Origin: a virus | Virus record (IMG/VR): IMGVR_UViG_3300047546_000312 | Location: 1-24,824 of that record | DNA: 24,824 bases | Reading direction: 5' to 3' (one strand) | Shown: positions 7,482 through 24,042 of the stretch, in pieces | How positions within the stretch are numbered: the stretch's first letter is position 1 | How the letters are laid out: each line of letters opens with the position of its first letter | Made by a program: the position numbers and the translations under genes | The notes under the pieces: generated by a model | What the model saw: the letters and a program-made list of their open reading frames with translations, nothing else | The model's database searches: none | Told to the model about the DNA's origin: nothing

Positions 7482-9677
7482 ATGGCTAAAATTACCCTCA
7501 CAGATCTGACTTCTCTGACAAACGAAATTACTGCTATTGCGGCTATCAACGCTAACAATGCTGCCATTGTAGCTGCACTCGAGAAGACGCTGTCACGGGA
7601 TGGGACCTCGCCCAACTCGATGGACGCTAACCTCGACATGAACAGCAACCGGATTCAGAATCTCCCGGCAGCTGTTGACTCGACCGAACCTGTCCGTAAG
7701 GCAGAGTTTGACGGCCTGATCAATCAGGTCACGACTATCTACAACAACACGGCTACCCTGTACGACAACTTTGATGATCGTTATCTGGGAGCAAAGACAT
7801 CCGATCCTGCCCTGGATAATGACGGCAATGCCCTCATTTCTGGGGCTTTGTATTTTAACAGCGTAGGCAACCGCCTGAAGACCTACAACGGTTCTTCGTG
7901 GGACTTCATCTCATCCAAGTGGTTGACTGGCTCTGGCACTCCTTCTGGGGGCACTGGCGCTGACGGAGACTTCTACCTCCGTTCCAATGGCGACGTGTAC
8001 CAGAAGTCTGGTGGTGGCTGGGGCAGTGTGCTGTTCTCAATCAAGGGTGCTCAGGGTGACGCTGGTCCTCAGGGTGCTCAAGGCCAGGCTGGTCAAACAG
8101 GTCCTAAGGGCGACAAGGGTGATACCGGTGCAACTGGTGCAACGGGTTCAACCGGCCCCACTGGTGCGACTGGTGCAACCGGTCCTGCAGGCACAGCTGC
8201 TACCATTGCTGTCGGCACCGTAACAACGGGTGCTGCCGGCTCAAGCGCTACGGTCACCAACTCTGGTACCTCAGCAGCTGCTGTATTTGATTTTTCAATC
8301 CCTAAGGGTGACAAAGGTGACACCGGAGCTACTGGTGCCACTGGTCCTCAAGGCCCTAAGGGTGACACAGGTGCTACGGGCGCTACAGGTGCCACAGGTC
8401 CAACTGGTCCTACGGGTGCAACTGGAGCCACAGGCGCTACTGGTCCTGCCGGTCCAGGTGTTCCCACAGGCGGTACCACTGGCCAGGTCCTGAAGAAGGC
8501 ATCCAACACTGACTACGACACAGTGTGGGGCACAGGCGGTGGTGGTGGAGCATCCGTTCTAGATGATCTTACTGACGTTGTTATTACGTCTGCCGCTACA
8601 GGTAACCTGCTTCGGTTTGACGGTACCAACTGGGTCAACTACGCAGACTCAAACTACGCTTCGTCGTCACACACGCACACCTTTGCGTCACTGACTTCTA
8701 AGCCGACCACAATCAGTGGCTATGGCATCACCGATGCCTACACCAAGACTGAAGTGGACACGGCTCTTGCAGGCAAGTCAGACACAAGCCACACGCACAC
8801 ATTTGCTTCGTTGACGTCTAAACCTACAACTCTTGCAGGTTATGGCATTACGGACGCTGCTTCCTCGACCCACAATCACACGGTCGACAGCCTTAGCAAC
8901 GTTACGATCACTTCCAAGGCTACCAACGATCTTCTCCGTTGGAACGGCACTGCCTGGGTAAATTATCCTGACAGCAACTACGCCGCAGCTTCGCACACGC
9001 ATACGGCTTCTCAAATCAGCGACAGCACAGCTGCTGGCCGGGCATTGCTTACCGGAGCTGACGCAGCTGCTCAACGTACGTCTCTTGGTCTTGGTTCGTT
9101 GGCTACCAAGTCAACGATTACCTCCAGTGACATCACGGACGGTACGATTGCTACGGCTGATATTGCAGACTCGGCTATTACAACAGCCAAGATCAATGCT
9201 GGTGCAGCTACGCTTGCCAAGCTTGATACCACGGGTACCTCTGGTTACGTGCTGACAGCCCAAGGCTCAGGCTCTGCTCCAGTCTGGGCAGCTGGTGCTG
9301 GCATGACATTGCTGGGTACTTTGACTACTACGTCAGGTACAACGCAAACATTGTCAAGTCTAACGCTGACTGGTTACAAATACCTCTATATTGTAGCAAA
9401 CGGCATTTCTCATAGTAACGGTGCGCAAAATGCAGCGCCAGTATTTGGTGGAAACAGTCTGTCGTCCAACAGAGCAAATACTGTAACCGTTAATTTAATT
9501 ATTATTGCAGATTTGCTTACTGGGTCGTTTCTTTACGGCGTTGCTTCAAGTGACGCTTACAACGCATCAAACTGTTATTCTGGTGGCCCGACTACTGCAT
9601 CTACTAGCGTTTCATTTAGCTGGACCAACAGCTCCTCCTTTGATGCTGGTTCAATTAAGATCTATGGGGTTTCGTAA
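7482..9677 (+). CDS. Tail fibre with collagen-like stalk and HxH repeats
   Basis: A 731-aa fibre that should form a trimer for receptor binding. The first 190 residues look like an attachment and shaft region ([20 protein letters not shown] near 48-67 is a common fibre motif). Gly-X-Y triplets run at about 189-237 and 276-326, split by a beta segment. Two related modules follow: [10 protein letters not shown]...GYGITDA at about 401 and 441, and a [22 protein letters not shown] pair about 110 residues apart. Four HxH motifs lie at H397/H399, H437/H439, H464/H466 and H505/H507, as in fibres that bind iron on the trimer axis (T4 gp37 tip). The last 120 residues are encoded by clearly more AT-rich DNA and probably form the exchangeable tip. 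In T7 the fibre gene lies after the ejection genes; here it precedes the tail tube genes. Confidence 0.88.
8046..8459 (+). repeat. Two blocks of collagen-like Gly-X-Y coding repeats
   Basis: Near-perfect 9-base periodicity of the type GGTGCNACN, encoding [12 protein letters not shown] triplets, covers 8046-8192 and 8307-8459. They are separated by 114 bases coding a non-collagen beta segment. Such repeats expand and contract easily and give long open frames on the other strand and in the second frame, which are artefacts. Confidence 0.85.
8571..9005 (+). repeat. Internal duplication in the tail fibre shaft
   Basis: At protein level residues about 364-400 and 472-508 are copies of one module (ITS-AT-LLRFDGT/WNGT-WVNY--SNYA---SHTHT). 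The segment [20 protein letters not shown] occurs twice, 40 residues apart. The DNA copies have drifted at third positions, so the duplication is old and kept by selection on the protein. Confidence 0.75.
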
Positions 9678-10311: not shown

Positions 10312-10800
10312 ATGGCCGCTCCCTGGCTTGAGGTAGCCACCAGGCTCCTCAACACTAAGGAGCTACCTGGATCTGCCAACTCCCCCATCATCCTTTCCTG
10401 GGCTCAGAAACTTGGTGGTTGGGTAGCATCCTTCTACAAAGAAGATTCCGTCCCGTGGTGTGGGTTGTTTGTAGCCCACTGTCTCAGTGAGGCAGGTATC
10501 CCAGGACTGCCAAAGAACCCTCTCAGCGCCCTTGCGTGGAAAGACTGGGGTAGCCCTACCGATCCAAGAGAAGGGGCCCTGTTGGTCTTCCAAAGGCCAG
10601 GAGGAGGCCATGTAGGATTCTACGTCGGTGAAAGATCCGATGCCTACAGGGTCAGAGGTGGAAACCAGAGTGACTCGGTGTGTGACACCTGGGTTGCCAA
10701 AGACAGACTGGTTGGCTGTCGGTGGCCCATTGGGACCCCAGTCTTCGGTAACAAGATAATCCTCACCGACAAGGGTGAGCTCTCCAAAAACGAGGCATAA
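10312..10800 (+). CDS. Endolysin, CHAP/NlpC-P60-like (TIGR02594 type)
   Basis: A 162-aa cysteine hydrolase expected to cut peptidoglycan amide bonds at lysis. The papain-like triad is visible: C50 in VPWCGLFVAHCL, H100 in GGGHVGFYVGE and N118 in VRGGNQSDSV. The wider pattern (SVPWCGLFVAHCL..., then GALLVFQRPGGGHVGFYVG) fits the TIGR02594 family of phage amidases or endopeptidases. No signal peptide is present, so export depends on the holin encoded next. The ATG at 10312 has a weak GAG site. The next gene starts one base after the stop. Confidence 0.85.
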   Translation: MAAPWLEVATRLLNTKELPGSANSPIILSWAQKLGGWVASFYKEDSVPWCGLFVAHCLSEAGIPGLPKNPLSALAWKDWGSPTDPREGALLVFQRPGGGHVGFYVGERSDAYRVRGGNQSDSVCDTWVAKDRLVGCRWPIGTPVFGNKIILTDKGELSKNEA

Positions 10801-10801
10801 C

Positions 10802-11209
10802 GTGGCCGGCTTAATCGACATCAGCAATGCTCTCCTGCCGGTCATCAACCGGGTGTTGGACCTGATCCCTGACCCTGCTGCCAAGCAGAAGGCTCAGTTG
10901 GAGATGCAGGCCAAACTCATTGAAATTGTGACCACGGAGTCTCAGAACCAGGCAGAAATCAACAAGATCGAAGCCGGTAATACCAACCTGTTTGTTTCTG
11001 GCTGGCGTCCAATGATTGGATGGGTATGTGCCGTGAGCTTTGGTTGGTTCTACATCGGTGCCCCGTTAGCCGTGTGGATCATGTCCATCTTTGGCGTACA
11101 CACCGATCTTCCCATCTTCGATAAGAATAGCCTCATGGAGCTGACGTTTGGAATGCTTGGCATGGGTGCTCTTCGCTCCTTTGACAAGTGGAAAGGCACA
11201 GCCAAATGA
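10802..11209 (+). CDS. Holin, 3-TM GTA type
   Basis: A 135-aa inner-membrane protein that should form the lesion releasing the endolysin. An N-terminal amphipathic part (DLIPDPAAKQKAQLEMQAKL) precedes a linker. GWRPMIGW at about residue 67-74 leads into hydrophobic segments (about 71-98 and 111-126). This arrangement, with the GWRP motif, is characteristic of the holin family first noted in gene-transfer agents. I set the start at GTG 10802 with GAGG at 10792-10795, instead of an upstream ATG at 10775 inside the endolysin gene. The end overlaps the next gene by ATGA. Confidence 0.83.
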   Translation: MAGLIDISNALLPVINRVLDLIPDPAAKQKAQLEMQAKLIEIVTTESQNQAEINKIEAGNTNLFVSGWRPMIGWVCAVSFGWFYIGAPLAVWIMSIFGVHTDLPIFDKNSLMELTFGMLGMGALRSFDKWKGTAK

Positions 11210-15838: not shown

Positions 15839-18800
15839 TTGGAAGATCTGTTGGACCTCAACACCCTCCCGCTTGATGTAGGAGGTGAGAAGCTGAACCT
15901 TGATCCGCACTACGTTAAGGGAGCATCGCTCTCTAACGACGTGCTGGATAATCGTTCCATGAAATATCACATGGCTCTTGGCAACGATTCTCCAGGTCCG
16001 GAGAAGATCAAGTCGTCAATCCAGGCTGGGACAGAAGATCAGCTGCGTAATTACGCGGCCAACAATGAATACCTTAAGGACAAAGCCGTACGTGCATCGC
16101 TTATGGGCATGTACGCGGCTCAACGTCCTGAGGGTGAGCTTCAGCCTGGTGAGCGTGAATTTCTTGACTCATTGTCGACGGCGGAACTTCACGACTCCAA
16201 GACTGTATTTGAGAAGCTGTACGGTAATAAGGTTGTTACAGCAACTATGGCTGACTCGGTAGATCAGGTCCAAGAAGCTGTCGACGTCAATGCTAGCGCT
16301 GTGGACGCTGCTCACAAAGCTTCAGCTGACTCTATTGCTAAGGGTGAATTGTGGCGTGCTCTGGCTGAAGAAGCGGATGCCATGTCGGATACTAATACGT
16401 GGTATGGTCTCTACAGCACAGCCAAGACATTTATTCCATTTAGGTCTTGGTACGGTGAGACAAACCTCACACCTGATGACGTCAAAAGTGACTCGTTTTT
16501 TAAGGGTGACTCTATTGCCAATCAGGTGCAGATTCTTAAAGGACGTACCGTAGACGAAAACAGTACAATCATAGCTGACATTCGCAAACGTATGCAGGAT
16601 GGCACAGTGAACCCTGCTGACGTTGCTGCGTTTGCAAAAGCTGCTCAGGGGTATTCCTACAGCGACCGTTGGATGGGTAACTTTTCCTCTGGCGTTGACG
16701 CGCTGGACCTCGTTCCTGGTATTGGAGTATCAGGTTCTATTATTTCTGGCGTAGGAAAGGGTGCTCTTCGTTTTGGCACCAAAATTGCAGCCAAACGTGC
16801 TGTCGTAAAAGGCATTGCTGAGGCGGAAGCTGAGACAGCTGCTACGGCAATTGCTAGAGATGCGCCTCGTGCTCAACACATCTACGGTGCTTCGTACGAC
16901 CCCAACACAGGTGTTGGTTACACAATTAACGGCCAAAAGTTTAACGTTGTTGAAAAAGACAGCATTAAGTCTAGTAAGAGTGGTCGAGAAGTTGGTGCTC
17001 GGGTTGTTTATCGTAATGAGGCTAATGGTGTTTCAGACCACGTTATTGAAATCAACCCTAAAAAGATTGCACAGGATTTTCAAGATAAAGCTTGGACAAA
17101 GCCTAAAGTTGAAGGTGTCAAAGTTTTTCCCGAGGATGCGTTTAAGACAGAGCAGGAGTGGAAGGACTTTGTAATTCACCACGAGGCTGAGCACTTGTAT
17201 GTCCGTAGGGCAGAAGGTCAGAGCCTTGCTGAGTACGAAAACCTGATCAACGAACGTGCTATGAAAAAGTTTAAGGTGGAGAACTCTAAAGCTCCTCCTA
17301 GCAATAATACTTTTGGCAAAGAGGTTGTCGATCCTAAGACCGGCAACGTAGACATTGTTGATATTCCAGATACACCGGAGAACCGTGTAGCTGCAATTGC
17401 TGATGCCGGCGTTGATAACGCTGAACGTAACACGCTTGACCCAGTAGCAATTCACACAACCAACGGCAGACTCAACCAGGCAGCTGCTCACAGCATCATT
17501 GAAGATGCCTCAGGCATGAAGCTGTCAACAGACGAAAAGACTTTGTTTAAGCGCATGGGTCGTGTGCTTGATGGGTTCTTTAACCCTGAGCGTCGGATTG
17601 CCGGCGTAGCTACAAACATGTCCAACAGGGCAAAAGAAAACATGCTTGCGGCTCTTGCTAACAGCCGTAATGCAGCTCTGCGAGCTCTGTTTGAAGGTGC
17701 TCAGGCTAACCGTATTTCTATTGATCAGCTCGAGCGTATGATGCCTGAGATCCAGGCAGAAGTACGTCGTCAAACGTCAACGCCACAGAATGCAATCCTT
17801 GAAACAAAGTGGGGATCAATTCACGAGTCCACAAATATTGAAGGCGTCAACTACATTGAGTACGGCATTGGTAAGTCAGACGGTACAATGTTTGGCTCAC
17901 GCAATGCTGCAGATGACGCTGCTGTAAACCTGTATGGTCTTGAACCTGGAACCTACAAAATTATTACGCAGGGCAGTGGCTCGTTCATTAAGATGCGTAA
18001 AGCTATTGACGAAGTTGCTCCCAAGTTCCGGGACATGCTTCTCGATGCCAATACGACTGCCCCAGTTCGTACCCATACACTGTTCTCTAGGTTCCTTGCC
18101 AGCGGTGACACTTTTGTCAGTGACGCGGCCAAGAAAGCTCGACTTGTAGCTACGCATCAAGCGTCAAAAATTCATGACGCTATGTACAATGCTGCCAAAG
18201 ACATTGGACAGATCTCCAAGCGAGAAGCTACCAACCTTGAAGCCATCCTTGAAATGAACCGTGACACCGAGTTTGGTGTTGCAGGAACCTCAAGCTACCA
18301 GCGTGGCTTCTGGTACGACAACGTTGGGGCTTTTGAACAAGCCTACAAACGTATGTTTCCAAATGATGGTTTTCCGAGCGAAAAAGTTACAAGAGCTTAC
18401 TTTACATATCGAAACCTAATGGATGCGGATTACCTTGCCCGTAACATGCGTCTGTACCGTGAGAAGTCACGCCTTGGCTTTAACACGTTTAATTTTGCTA
18501 TTCCTGTAGCGGCAAACATTGACGGTACAACTGAAAAAACCATGCAGATGATGGGACACCGTGTCGAAGGCAAATTTGTTGACGACATCATTCAGGACGG
18601 TACCGACAAGCGTATCTTGATTATCGACAACGAGAACGTAGAAACGCACTATGTTCGGTCTAAATCGGACGGTATGGCCCTTCCTATGGATTATCAAGCT
18701 AAGGGCTACAAAATGGTCATGCTTGCCAATCCGAATGTTCGTCCGCTTATGAATTTGACAGGCAATGACAATCTGATTCAGTACGTCCTGGTAAAGAACT

Positions 18801-21256
18801 TTGAGACTCGTCCGATGGACTTTGTGCAGATCCCGTACCGCCCTGGTGGTCACGTTGTGGTCTCTGCCAACTGGAAGGTCTCACAGCCGAGGATTGTCAC
18901 GACAAGTGATGGCTCACGCATTCACGTAGGCGACAATCACTTTACATTTGTGTCGTCTCGTAAGGAAGCTCAAGTGTGGGCAGAACGTATGGAGACAGCC
19001 CGTAAGATGTTGGTTGCCGGCGACTACAAAGCGCTTGGTAAGTACATCACGGACAAGAACCTTCCATACAATTCTCTCAACGAGTTTATTGCTTTGTTTG
19101 AACCCCGAGTGGTTGACGGTGAACAGGTTGAAGCCACGTTCCTAAAAGACTCCCCGTTTGTGGAAGTGGCTGATGCAGACGGCACCAACGATGCTGCCAA
19201 GACCTACGCCAGAGATCGACTGTCTGTGCATTTCAATGGCGTTGAGGACACTCTCGACATGCCTGAGAACTTGTACAAGTTAATCGACAAGGAATTTGCC
19301 GGTACTCGTAACGAGGTGGCTCGTACGGTTGTGCAGAACGGTCCTGACTGGGCTTTTGAAAAGGCACGTCACCTGTCGCCTATGCAGACGCTCCAGGACA
19401 GTATCTCGCGTGTCATGCGTAGCACGGCTTTAGACAATTACCAGACCCATGCTGCCGAGAACTTTGTCGAACAGTATGCAGACACGATGCTGACTCCTAA
19501 GGACGTCATGCGTCAGAATGTGCTTGAGCATTTGATGAACCCTGATTGGAACCCCAAGGCTGATCCTGTTCGTCTTGCTGCGGCTAAAGCCAATCGTATG
19601 GCTACCATTCAGTTCCTTGGAATGCGTGACCCTACAGCCTCAGCGTTGGATTGGGTCAAGGACAAGCTGTTGGATTCAGTCTACAATGCTGGTGGCAAAG
19701 CCCGTGCTGATTGGGTTGATGCTCATCTGCTGCCCTATGTCAAAGACCCCAGCGTGTACCTTCGCTCTGTTGGGTTTCATCTGAAGCTTGGTCTGTTCAA
19801 TCCTCAGCAGTTGTTTATCAACTCGCAGACAATGTTTCATGCCATGGCCATCAGTGGCGATCCCAAAGCCGTGATGAGATCTACAGCTGCTACGACGCTC
19901 ATGTCTGCAGGCCGTATGACTGAACGTCCTGAGGTCCTTTTCAAGATTGCTCAGATCTCCACCAAGTTTGGCTGGAAGGCTAATGAGTTTAAGGAAATGT
20001 GGGCCATCTACAAAGAACAAGGCATCGGCATTGTTGGTGGTGAAGTTGGTAGCTTGGACAATATCTTTGCTCCCAAGGTGTTCACTGGCGCCGTAGGCAA
20101 ATTCCTCGATAAGGGGACAATGTTCTTTCAAGAGACTGAACGTGCTGTCCGAGCCAATGCCTGGGCTCTTGCATATCAGGAGTTCCGGAAAGCAAATCCG
20201 ACCAAAGTCATTAATGCCGATGACATTGCCTCAATGATGCGGCGTAGCGATACGCTGTCCGTCAACATGACCCGTGCATCAAACGCTGCATGGCAGCACG
20301 GTGTATTCTCAATCCCTGCTCAGTTTAGCGGCTATCAAGCTCGTATTATGCAGCAGATGCTTGGCAAAGAACTTACGTTGGCTGAGAAGGCTCGTGTGTT
20401 CACAATGTACTCAGCTCTCTACGGTTTGCCCGTAGGTGTCGGTGCAACGGGTCTTACAGCTGGTTATCCGGTTGGTGAAGACATTCGTCAGGCAGCATTG
20501 GCTCGTGGCATCAAGCTCGATGAGGGTGCTACCGGCCTTTTGATGAATGGCATGATCAACGCTGTGCTCAAGGCTGCAACTGGCAGTGATTATAACGTTG
20601 GTCAACGTGTTGGTCCTGGTGGTCTTGAGCCACTGCGGCAAATGCTCAACGGAGACAAGACTGCTTGGCAGATCATTGGTGGTCCGTCAGCAACAATCGT
20701 AAGCGATGTGATGTCTCGGGCATTTCCAGCTATTCACGACATACTCACGCTCGATATCAACAGTTTGAAGCAAGTTGATTTCATGAACTCGTTTCAAGAA
20801 GTGTCGACTGTGTCTAACGTGACGAAGCTTTATTACGCACTACAAGCTCACAAGCTTCTGTCAAAGAACGGTACGCCGCTTGGTCACATGAATACGCAAG
20901 AAGCGTGGATCATGGCTGTCACAGGTTTGACCCCTCAGCACATTGCTGATGCGTACACTAAGCTGAATGAAATGAAAGACATGAAGGCTATTGAAGCAGA
21001 TCAGAACAAAGCGTTCTTGACCTACTTCCGAAAGGCTCTTGAGCTCAAAGAAGGAAGTCCAGAACGCAGGGATCTGATTGCCAAGGCAAAGTCTTTTATG
21101 ATCAATCGTGATCCTACAGATACCAATACTTTGATGATGCAAGCATTTGGTAACAAGACAGTTGAAGACACCGCTAATGAACAGTTTGCCAAAGGCGGTC
21201 CTACCAATACTCGTCAGGCTCGTAAAAACCTTACCCTTGAAAGCACGGAACAGTAA
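15839..21256 (+). CDS. Giant virion ejection protein with zincin-like HExxH motif
   Basis: At 1805 aa this is the largest gene, in the T7 gp15/gp16 position. It probably travels with the DNA into the host envelope. A hydrophobic LVPGIGVSGSIISGVG stretch (about 290-305) could contact membrane. HHEAEH at 447-452 is a perfect HExxH, with YENLINERA (466-474) downstream as a possible third zinc ligand and helix; this region is AT-rich and looks inserted. Residues about 650-1150 contain segments resembling large-polyvalent-protein-associated domains (for example FGSRNAADDAAVNLYGLEPG). From about 1310 on, a long helical section with LFNPQQLFINSQTMFH is common to large phage ejection proteins. The TTG start at 15839 is supported by GGAG at 15827-15830. 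Protease activity is inferred from the motif only. Confidence 0.83.
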   Translation: MEDLLDLNTLPLDVGGEKLNLDPHYVKGASLSNDVLDNRSMKYHMALGNDSPGPEKIKSSIQAGTEDQLRNYAANNEYLKDKAVRASLMGMYAAQRPEGELQPGEREFLDSLSTAELHDSKTVFEKLYGNKVVTATMADSVDQVQEAVDVNASAVDAAHKASADSIAKGELWRALAEEADAMSDTNTWYGLYSTAKTFIPFRSWYGETNLTPDDVKSDSFFKGDSIANQVQILKGRTVDENSTIIADIRKRMQDGTVNPADVAAFAKAAQGYSYSDRWMGNFSSGVDALDLVPGIGVSGSIISGVGKGALRFGTKIAAKRAVVKGIAEAEAETAATAIARDAPRAQHIYGASYDPNTGVGYTINGQKFNVVEKDSIKSSKSGREVGARVVYRNEANGVSDHVIEINPKKIAQDFQDKAWTKPKVEGVKVFPEDAFKTEQEWKDFVIHHEAEHLYVRRAEGQSLAEYENLINERAMKKFKVENSKAPPSNNTFGKEVVDPKTGNVDIVDIPDTPENRVAAIADAGVDNAERNTLDPVAIHTTNGRLNQAAAHSIIEDASGMKLSTDEKTLFKRMGRVLDGFFNPERRIAGVATNMSNRAKENMLAALANSRNAALRALFEGAQANRISIDQLERMMPEIQAEVRRQTSTPQNAILETKWGSIHESTNIEGVNYIEYGIGKSDGTMFGSRNAADDAAVNLYGLEPGTYKIITQGSGSFIKMRKAIDEVAPKFRDMLLDANTTAPVRTHTLFSRFLASGDTFVSDAAKKARLVATHQASKIHDAMYNAAKDIGQISKREATNLEAILEMNRDTEFGVAGTSSYQRGFWYDNVGAFEQAYKRMFPNDGFPSEKVTRAYFTYRNLMDADYLARNMRLYREKSRLGFNTFNFAIPVAANIDGTTEKTMQMMGHRVEGKFVDDIIQDGTDKRILIIDNENVETHYVRSKSDGMALPMDYQAKGYKMVMLANPNVRPLMNLTGNDNLIQYVLVKNFETRPMDFVQIPYRPGGHVVVSANWKVSQPRIVTTSDGSRIHVGDNHFTFVSSRKEAQVWAERMETARKMLVAGDYKALGKYITDKNLPYNSLNEFIALFEPRVVDGEQVEATFLKDSPFVEVADADGTNDAAKTYARDRLSVHFNGVEDTLDMPENLYKLIDKEFAGTRNEVARTVVQNGPDWAFEKARHLSPMQTLQDSISRVMRSTALDNYQTHAAENFVEQYADTMLTPKDVMRQNVLEHLMNPDWNPKADPVRLAAAKANRMATIQFLGMRDPTASALDWVKDKLLDSVYNAGGKARADWVDAHLLPYVKDPSVYLRSVGFHLKLGLFNPQQLFINSQTMFHAMAISGDPKAVMRSTAATTLMSAGRMTERPEVLFKIAQISTKFGWKANEFKEMWAIYKEQGIGIVGGEVGSLDNIFAPKVFTGAVGKFLDKGTMFFQETERAVRANAWALAYQEFRKANPTKVINADDIASMMRRSDTLSVNMTRASNAAWQHGVFSIPAQFSGYQARIMQQMLGKELTLAEKARVFTMYSALYGLPVGVGATGLTAGYPVGEDIRQAALARGIKLDEGATGLLMNGMINAVLKAATGSDYNVGQRVGPGGLEPLRQMLNGDKTAWQIIGGPSATIVSDVMSRAFPAIHDILTLDINSLKQVDFMNSFQEVSTVSNVTKLYYALQAHKLLSKNGTPLGHMNTQEAWIMAVTGLTPQHIADAYTKLNEMKDMKAIEADQNKAFLTYFRKALELKEGSPERRDLIAKAKSFMINRDPTDTNTLMMQAFGNKTVEDTANEQFAKGGPTNTRQARKNLTLESTEQ

Positions 21257-21261
21257 TTAGA

Positions 21262-24042
21262 ATGGCTAGTTTTAATCCAGAAACGCAAGACGTCGGTACC
21301 CAGCATTACATTGGCTACAGCCAACGTGCTAGGGGTGAAAACATTTGGGGTACTTTGTTTGAAGGTGTCGTGAATACTGCTGACGCGGTTGTTGGTGGTA
21401 TGGCTGAAAAAGAGTCTAAGGACGCGGTCAATAAGATTTCCAACGACTACTTTGGTACAAAGGATTTCTCAGACAAGTTTCTGAGCAAGCCACCTCAGGT
21501 AGCTGACAATGACGCTGCGGCTAAGGACACAACGACTGCAACTGACGCAAATGTTCCTAATCCAGTGAAGGATGGTGTTAGCCGTATTGATACGCTCACG
21601 CAGGCTAAAGACGCAGGAAAGCTTTCTGAAAAGAACTTTGCTGGTCAGTTGGATGCTACAATTCGTGAGATCAAGGCTAAGTACCCTGGCTACGAAGATT
21701 ACATTGACAAGGCTGTGTCTCGTGCGTTGAACCAGCCTACGGCCAATATGCTTCGCAATGCCATCATTGATGATTGGAACCGTAAAGCTTCAGCTGCTTC
21801 AGATGAGGTCAAAGCTAACCGCAGATTTGCTGATGACGCTCTTAGTAATGGTTACATTTCTGCAGACACCTACAAAAAGATTTATGCAGGTGAAATGAAT
21901 GCTGACGAAATTCTTGAGGTTAAGGCCAAGGCTGGAACTCTTGCAGCCAAGGATGCGAAGACTCAAAGTGAAATTCGAAATGCAGACTTAATAAGTAAAA
22001 ACAGGGCAAATGGTCAAGCTACTGTTGAGCAAGAGCAAAACGCTCAAGCCGATGCTACATCTGCTAGTGTTGATCAATTGTTTAGCAACACTTACTACAA
22101 GCTTGCTGGTGACACTGGTAAAGACTGGGAAAACTTTCAAGCTAAAATCAAAAAGTATCAGAGCGCGGATAGCGCAGGTGGTACGGCAATTGATCCTACT
22201 GAAATGCAAGATCTTATCAATACAACCCAGACTATTGATGCTACTATGCGTAAAACTTACGCTAATATGATTGGACGTATAACGGATAGTGGTAAAACCG
22301 TTCGAGAAGTTATTGGAACGGATCGTGCTAAAAAGATTGACGATTTGTTTGAAGCTCGCATGGAGCCCATCAAAAAGATTATGAATGGTGACAAGGACGC
22401 TCTGTCGTACCTTAACTGGAATATGCTTCTTCAAAAGGCAGACGACAGTTCTCGTATGAGTCGTATTCTTCAGACCAACATTGGCCAGATCAACGCTAAC
22501 GTTGGTGCGCTTTCTAAACTGAGCAATGGTGCTTTGAATCCAATCTTGCTAACAGCCGCAGGTAACGAAATGGCTGATGGCGGTCGGTCAAGCATGAAAG
22601 ACGCTCAAGACGCTATTGTTCTTGGTGCTGTGTCTCAAGGAATTGTTGAAGGCAAACAAGTAGGTGCTCAGGTTGATGACGCTAAAAAATCAACTGATCC
22701 CAAGACAGCCGCTGCTATTACCTCGGACATCATTGACAAGAACACCAAGATTATTCTTGCGCCTACCGTAGATGACGAAACAAAGGCTAAATCTTTTAAG
22801 TCAATGTACGATCCGTCGTTGTTGAGCAAGATGAACCCACAGTCTGCTCAGATGGTGTACCGTAAGCTTGTCAATCCAACAATGGCTAAGACCATTGCAA
22901 AGCTTGCCGAAAGCGATCCTGCTATTGCTGAACAGTATCAGCAGTTCATCATGACTCAAGGCAAAGCCCTTCGCAGTGAGACTGAAGCAGACGTACAAGA
23001 AGCAATTACGTTCTTTGACAAGGGTAACATTGTTGTCGACAAGGATGGCAGCTTCCACGTCCGTCTTGATCCCAAGGCGTTCAAGGATCCTGAGGCGGCT
23101 CTTGAGTTCCTTCGTGGTGGTGGGCAGGTTGTTGCTGGCAAGGGTGGTGCTATTCGTTCAATGAGTGCGGAAGACCGTAAGCAGCTCGATCTCTACCGTT
23201 CTGCTCAAAAGGCAGCTGGTGAGATGAACTTGTACCTTGACGGTATCCGTGTGTGGATGGATGCTCGTGGGGTAAAGGACGAACAGGCTCGTGCTGCTAC
23301 GCTTCAGCAAGCCATTGGTAACATCAACTTCAACGCTCCTAAGCAAGACACTTGGATCAAGGGTTTCAATAAGGCGTTGGATAACTTCTTCACAATTAAC
23401 CGTGACACCAGCGACACAGGCATAGGTAAGTACACGCTTCCTGATATTGGCCTTCGCATTGGTAAGCCTGGTGAACCGGCTCTTACCTTTGCTGCACGGC
23501 CAGCAGGTCCGACACCTGATGAAATTCGTGCTAAAAACCGTCAGGCTGAACTTGAAAAGAATGCTGATGCCCTAAAGGATTTCAAACTCAGCAACACTTT
23601 TGAGCCTGGCACTGAGACCCCTGTAAAACGGTCAACCCTTATGACACGGCTTGTAGAGGAGCAGGGACTTCCTCCTGTGGCTGCAGCGGGTGTTGTCGGT
23701 AACCTGATGCACGAGTCTGGCCTTAAGCCTGGAGCTGTTGGTGACAGTGGCTCATCCATTGGCTGGGCACAGTGGCACGCAGACCGTAAAGATGACTTCA
23801 AGGTGTGGGCTAAGTCCAACGGTTTGGATCCCAATACCGATGAGACCAACTACGCTTACCTCATCCATGACCTAGAAACAAACTACCCTGAGGTCTTGGC
23901 AAAGTTGAAGAAAGCCAAGAGCCACGAGGAAGCTTCGGACATCTTCATGGAAGAGTACGAGCGTCCTGGAATCAAAGCTCGTAGTTCCCGTATTGGCAAC
24001 GCCAAGTCGGCACTGGACGCCTACCAGGGTGCCTCTCAGTAA
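21262..24042 (+). CDS. Virion ejection protein with C-terminal phage tail lysozyme
   Basis: A 926-aa protein. The first 780 residues are helical and Ala/Lys/Asp-rich; the start (QDVGTQHYIGYSQRARGENIWGTLFEGVVNTADAV) resembles internal virion proteins of podoviruses. Residues about 787-925 form a phage tail lysozyme-type domain: VAAAGVVGNLMHESGL with likely catalytic E818, then GDSGSSIGWAQWHADR, and a final helix pair. It should cut glycan strands during DNA entry. In T7 the transglycosylase is at the N-terminus of gp16; here it closes the last protein of the module. Bases 21950-22330 are more AT-rich than neighbouring parts. Only a weak site precedes ATG 21262, five bases after the preceding stop. 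A strong terminator follows. Confidence 0.88.
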   Translation: MASFNPETQDVGTQHYIGYSQRARGENIWGTLFEGVVNTADAVVGGMAEKESKDAVNKISNDYFGTKDFSDKFLSKPPQVADNDAAAKDTTTATDANVPNPVKDGVSRIDTLTQAKDAGKLSEKNFAGQLDATIREIKAKYPGYEDYIDKAVSRALNQPTANMLRNAIIDDWNRKASAASDEVKANRRFADDALSNGYISADTYKKIYAGEMNADEILEVKAKAGTLAAKDAKTQSEIRNADLISKNRANGQATVEQEQNAQADATSASVDQLFSNTYYKLAGDTGKDWENFQAKIKKYQSADSAGGTAIDPTEMQDLINTTQTIDATMRKTYANMIGRITDSGKTVREVIGTDRAKKIDDLFEARMEPIKKIMNGDKDALSYLNWNMLLQKADDSSRMSRILQTNIGQINANVGALSKLSNGALNPILLTAAGNEMADGGRSSMKDAQDAIVLGAVSQGIVEGKQVGAQVDDAKKSTDPKTAAAITSDIIDKNTKIILAPTVDDETKAKSFKSMYDPSLLSKMNPQSAQMVYRKLVNPTMAKTIAKLAESDPAIAEQYQQFIMTQGKALRSETEADVQEAITFFDKGNIVVDKDGSFHVRLDPKAFKDPEAALEFLRGGGQVVAGKGGAIRSMSAEDRKQLDLYRSAQKAAGEMNLYLDGIRVWMDARGVKDEQARAATLQQAIGNINFNAPKQDTWIKGFNKALDNFFTINRDTSDTGIGKYTLPDIGLRIGKPGEPALTFAARPAGPTPDEIRAKNRQAELEKNADALKDFKLSNTFEPGTETPVKRSTLMTRLVEEQGLPPVAAAGVVGNLMHESGLKPGAVGDSGSSIGWAQWHADRKDDFKVWAKSNGLDPNTDETNYAYLIHDLETNYPEVLAKLKKAKSHEEASDIFMEEYERPGIKARSSRIGNAKSALDAYQGASQ

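Follow-up and report, generated by a model that had tools for sequence, protein, structure and literature searches.

Results

The window (the whole stretch of viral DNA analysed here, 24,824 nucleotides) exhibits a long uninterrupted ORF on the + strand (15839..21256), with a TTG start and a GGAG sequence upstream, which encodes a giant protein of 1805 aa. The conserved C-terminal region of this protein (residues 1302-1669; 19742..20845, + strand) matches the internal virion protein family phrog_12003 (E-value = 9e-32), and in tblastn searches the Zobellviridae homologues SIO1 gp26 and ICP2 gp6 cover its C-terminal third. The window and Zobellviridae also have a gene order in common: tail protein, tail appendage, small protein and internal virion protein. 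On sequence homology and gene order, the ORF product is a podophage internal virion (ejection) protein, like those of the T7 gp16 type and of Zobellviridae with respect to phrog_12003 and gene order. This homology makes packaging in the virion and ejection into the host probable. T7 gp16 has a transglycosylase, whereas a domain search found neither this domain nor a lysozyme domain in the 1805-aa protein; several other proteins carrying the domain described below are likewise without a lysozyme domain in such a search. The next virion protein (926 aa; 21262..24042, + strand) exhibits a C-terminal phage lysozyme domain (PF18013 Phage_lysozyme2, residues 793-921, E-value = 7e-29). The peptidoglycan hydrolase is thus located on a separate protein. 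Antisense ORFs across the region were not counted as genes. Elsewhere in the window, a weak CHAP match (E-value = 4e-5, below cut-off) at 10312-11209 adjoins a GTA_holin_3TM gene, forming a probable lysis cassette amid the tail genes, and positions 7482-9677 probably encode a tail fibre that contains long stretches of collagen-like GXY repeats.

Residues ~335-529 of the 1805-aa protein (16841..17425, + strand) constitute an inserted module, the boundaries of which are approximate and were set where the homologue matches stop. Its zincin-like core spans residues 358-483 (16910..17287, + strand) according to the elements of the AlphaFold2 model, the profile match covering residues 364-483 (E-value = 3e-37). 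A preliminary description of this DNA had noticed HHEAEH at residues 447-452, followed about 15 residues on by YENLINERA, and had read them as a gluzincin-like active site in a segment of AT-rich, differently styled DNA between ordinary ejection-protein flanks. Both motifs are borne out by the sequence. HEAEH occupies residues 448-452 (17180..17194, + strand), with His448 and His452 as predicted zinc ligands and Glu449 as predicted general base; Glu467 in YENLIN (17237..17239, + strand), the predicted third zinc ligand, lies 15 residues after His452. Another sequence common to the family alignment, the signature DKAWTKPKVEGV (residues 416-427; 17084..17119, + strand), was used for independent scans. 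The AT-richness is real but mild: the GC content of 16870-17350 is 0.437 against a mean of 0.501, which falls in the lowest 4.4% of 481-bp windows. The flanks are indeed of the ordinary ejection-protein kind, given the phrog_12003 match and the alignment of both of them to relatives without the insert.

A HExxH motif alone is weak evidence, since 3.1% of shuffles of the 1805-aa protein contain one by chance. The motif could accordingly be fortuitous, in a helical structural protein harbouring no zincin, and all 7 cultured homologues of the protein, unlike the window protein, lack HExxH. Such a coincidence is nevertheless largely refuted by the family profile, the predicted fold and the independent conservation tests presented below, and we regard it as extremely improbable.

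The preliminary description had asked for the presence or absence of the insert in homologues. Relatives with the same backbone were drawn from IMG/VR via their terminase and then aligned to the 1805-aa protein, and the insert proved to be absent from several of them, with 0-7 residues at the site. The alignment gives 5 residues in G019 where the window has 196, and 7 versus 205 in G011; the matches on either side meet directly or overlap in G014 and G043, leaving no residues at the insert site. Low-complexity linkers of 58-71 residues are found there in three other relatives (G025, G007 and G038), and G005 exhibits a diverged copy of the domain at the same position, with HELAH and the Glu aligned. 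In G022 (L096, L111), 266 unrelated residues are located at the window's insert junction, a point at which various inserts may preferentially enter. G043 (L109:463-5103, IMGVR 3300033067_000159) lacks an insert at the position used in the window, but exhibits, where window residue ~1240 would align, another HExxH stretch (HEMGHAVDF...NRAEWFAEETSKW) of ~230 residues. The same backbone may thus have acquired a zincin a second time, independently.

AlphaFold2, supplied with the family alignment, predicted a compact alpha/beta structure with pLDDT values of 94-98 over most of residues 364-483 and of 82-84 in two ten-residue blocks. The model has four strands followed by three helices, of which the second carries HExxH and the third the Glu. 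HExxH (448-452) is located on a helix of 15 residues (model positions 106-120) and Glu467 on the next helix (model positions 131-151). The model of a second member, L140 (pLDDT 92.9, pTM 0.86), exhibits the same order of elements. The motif is thus part of an alpha/beta domain with the Glu on the next helix, and not of a long coiled helix devoid of a third ligand, the outcome that the preliminary description had named as fatal to its reading. The VIA-align neighbours of the window model are mostly zincins, with YbeY at Z = 8.0 and 7.7. Those of the L140 model are the YbeY-like 1oz9 (Z = 6.9), IrrE (3dte, Z = 6.1), PprI and selecase, and further Wss1, abylysin, the catalytic domain of anthrax lethal factor, deuterolysin and ArdC. 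Since single Z values are middling and Foldseek returned no match in the PDB at 0.001, the structural weight lies in the consistent list of zincins and in the placement of the conserved residues. Against BFVD, Foldseek matched five unnamed phage proteins (E-values of 2e-7 to 3e-4); the BFVD entry A0A6J5N5Q0 resembles the window domain (42% identity over 81 columns, rmsd 1.1) and bears no functional name. The features of a gluzincin-type (clan MA) peptidase, namely HExxH on a helix, a Glu on the following helix and a beta-sheet zincin fold, were all identified. The predicted fold, the zincin neighbours and the conserved HExxH and Glu together support the gluzincin-like arrangement proposed earlier.

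First scans, which demanded exact peptides, retrieved nothing, or G005 alone. A DNA pattern for HExxH-x13-YExxIN found at least 119 stretches in IMG/VR, nearly all of which, among the matches listed, lie in long ORFs and share one consensus. The same HExxH...YExxIN pattern yielded 20 stretches in 257 Gb of prokaryote genomes, none with the domain consensus, so that these off-family stretches also gauge the chance background of the pattern. Because this pattern imposes the HExxH/Glu motif, two control scans of IMG/VR were run. When HExxH was left free (KAWTxP + YEN), 37 of 38 stretches exhibited it in register, the sole exception being L238 with HEAEN. When the Glu was left free (KAWTxP + HExxH), the Glu motif was present in 66 of 67 stretches (65 of the strict form E-x-x-[ILMTVA]-N-x-x-[ACSTG] and one more of the near form YENRINISVL), mostly 15 residues past the second His, with a range of 7 to 29. 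Loss of the motif in homologues that keep the domain, likewise named beforehand as a refutation, is therefore not what these scans show. The stretches fetched contain at least 96 non-redundant copies of the domain. A profile built without the window and without G005 detects the 1805-aa protein at E = 2.2e-33 and G005 at 7.8e-20, its best score against 1000 shuffles of the window protein being 0.19. Judged from the sequences, the whole domain is not due to chance.

With the domain masked, 140 carrier ORFs (among the matches listed) and the window protein fall into 15 groups by single linkage, an approximate count, some carriers being incomplete at contig ends. Besides its own group, 12 others include, among the matches listed, members that the window domain matches (E <= 1e-3). 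The window backbone matches none of those 12 groups, and the domain reaches 53% identity with copies on unrelated backbones. Its identity to the G005 copy, which shares the same backbone, is 33-37%, below that to the unrelated-backbone copies. The largest group (85 carriers among the matches listed) includes the phrog_342 internal virion proteins L190, L213 and L124, and the L247 carrier matches a virion structural protein. The median length of the complete carriers among the matches listed is 1333 aa, and the position of the domain in them varies from the first tenth of the protein to its end. Sequence comparison indicates that the domain is a mobile cassette, for it occurs in ~12 groups of giant phage proteins whose backbones are unrelated, T7-gp16-like internal virion proteins among them, and yet is absent from several relatives with the same backbone. 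One locus (L219:4682-14338) encodes a polypeptide of at least 3219 aa in which this zincin domain is accompanied by a PD-(D/E)XK nuclease domain.

Tblastn found no match of the window domain in cultured phages. Three representatives, searched by tblastn against 50,697 cultured phage records, revealed one carrier, Pelagibacter phage EXVC031P (L259:3612-7355, WDQ27578.1). Its domain (E-value = 1e-16) keeps the Glu motif and has KKEVY in place of HExxH; the domain can thus persist without HExxH. One representative gave no match in plasmids at the sensitivity of tblastn, and all absences in the distribution hold within what tblastn and exact patterns are able to detect.

No model of Pfam, NCBIfam, PHROG or PADLOC covers the domain at the curated cut-off. 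Weak matches below cut-off were obtained with DUF4344, a putative metallopeptidase (7.8e-4), MPTase-PolyVal and M78. A PADLOC match to Lit (0.039) is too weak to use, and a sequence search of the PDB returned PCI-domain proteins only (E >= 0.3), which were rejected as unrelated. The peptidase-family search suggested at the outset thus assigns the domain to no curated family, its fold neighbours being zincins.

In the polyvalent proteins that accompany phage and plasmid DNA into the host, zincins are the commonest domain and form 12 clades, and either self-processing or host targeting has been proposed for them (Iyer et al. 2017, PMC5512222). The polyvalent MPTases (PMC5512222; PF18818; ArdC 6sna) resemble the present family in placing HExxH and a Glu on consecutive helices, and are likewise found at variable positions in very large proteins among virion genes. 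ArdC (6sna) is a structural neighbour (Z = 4.2, rmsd 3.5, 82 aligned). The PF18818 (MPTase-PolyVal) cut-off was not reached, with no match in the window and a best value of 0.034, in 1 of 43 members. Where the common phage MPTase clade has an Asp three residues after HExxH (PMC5512222), 67 members of this family exhibit F, N, Y, M or others. The family has its own signature, DKAWTxP...YENxIN, with HExxH and not HExxxH. Unlike the polyvalent MPTases, it was unseen in plasmids (one representative) and among the prokaryote-genome matches. The IrrE/PprI and ImmA-type peptidases (PF06114, M78) share HExxH and a downstream Glu (3dte: Z = 6.1, rmsd 2.7, 79 aligned); the best PF06114 value, below cut-off, was 0.097 in 1 of 43 members, and no link to a repressor or regulator was seen. 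The minigluzincins (abylysin 4jiu, jannalysin 4jix, selecase 4qhg) and Wss1 appear similar in size and fold (Z ~5, rmsd 3.5-4.9, with 4.7-4.9 for the minigluzincin fold), whereas they are free-standing or eukaryotic proteins and exhibit no sequence match to this domain. The family appears to be new and of an already predicted kind, the virion-delivered zincins; it departs from PF18818 and from the one phage-clade marker described in the text of that study, yet may be one of the 12 clades. Our literature search found no paper that describes ejection proteins or internal virion proteins with a metalloprotease, and the text of a review on ejection proteins (PMC8954989) contains neither 'protease' nor 'peptidase'.

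Discussion

The signature, the confident predicted fold, the conservation of the catalytic residues, the absence from same-backbone homologues and the recurrence elsewhere make it very likely that a zincin-type metallopeptidase domain resides in this internal virion protein, a likelihood that covers the type of enzyme and its carrier, not its target. The domain would be a small gluzincin-type metallopeptidase of ~125 residues, made of a beta sheet, the HExxH helix and the Glu helix, binding zinc through His448, His452 and Glu467 with Glu449 as the general base, and would have entered a podophage internal virion protein as a cassette. Packed in the virion, the protein would enter the host envelope or cytoplasm alongside the DNA, and once inside the host the domain would cut a protein. 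Being optional in one backbone and moving between backbones, it resembles an accessory effector more than a general assembly step. Owing to this fit, an early host target is the role that we tentatively favour for such a zincin, above the three other roles considered here.

The same class of enzyme might instead act on another substrate, cutting its own polypeptide or the ejection proteins that are its partners. This could take place prior to packaging, inside the head or in the course of ejection, and would release or reshape parts of the machine. Such self-processing has been proposed for the zincins of polyvalent proteins, and DdrB of P1 is processed before packaging (Iyer et al. 2017, PMC5512222), although the N4 virion RNAP with its MPTase is packaged unprocessed (PMC5512222). 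The location of the domain within a multidomain protein, with low-complexity linkers on either side, is consistent with this role. However, no cleavage site was identified, and close homologues of the same backbone manage without the domain, which argues against a general assembly step; we hold self-processing to be somewhat less likely than a host target. Still less likely is a periplasmic action on peptidoglycan peptides or envelope proteins that would clear the DNA tunnel, the domain standing in for the N-terminal transglycosylase of gp16. In T7, the N-terminal part of gp16 is located in the periplasm and bears a peptidoglycan hydrolase that is phage-specific and swappable (PMC8954989). The lack of a lysozyme domain in the window protein and several carriers would accord with such a replacement, whereas a lysozyme is already provided by the next virion protein. 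Against it stands also that peptidoglycan peptidases are, to our knowledge, rarely of such a HExxH type. The zincin-like fold may finally have been retained as a non-catalytic binding or structural module, as the KKEVY of EXVC031P in a domain otherwise kept (E-value = 1e-16) and the HEAEN of L238 would suggest; yet HExxH (37/38) and the Glu (66/67) are the most conserved positions in the carriers, and we consider this the least probable of the four roles.

Returning to the host-directed role, we propose with due reserve an undescribed zincin family, here in phages only, which would pass as a cassette between unrelated ejection proteins and serve as a virion-delivered, host-directed protease at the onset of infection. 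What was an isolated motif is now a domain family that can be delimited and recognised by its signature, that has a predicted active site, and that Pfam, NCBIfam and PHROGs do not contain. A construct of 160 residues, together with a single point change, makes it possible to ask by experiment whether zincins in phage proteins that are ejected act on themselves or on the host. If active, the members of this family would represent a set of small virion-delivered proteases.
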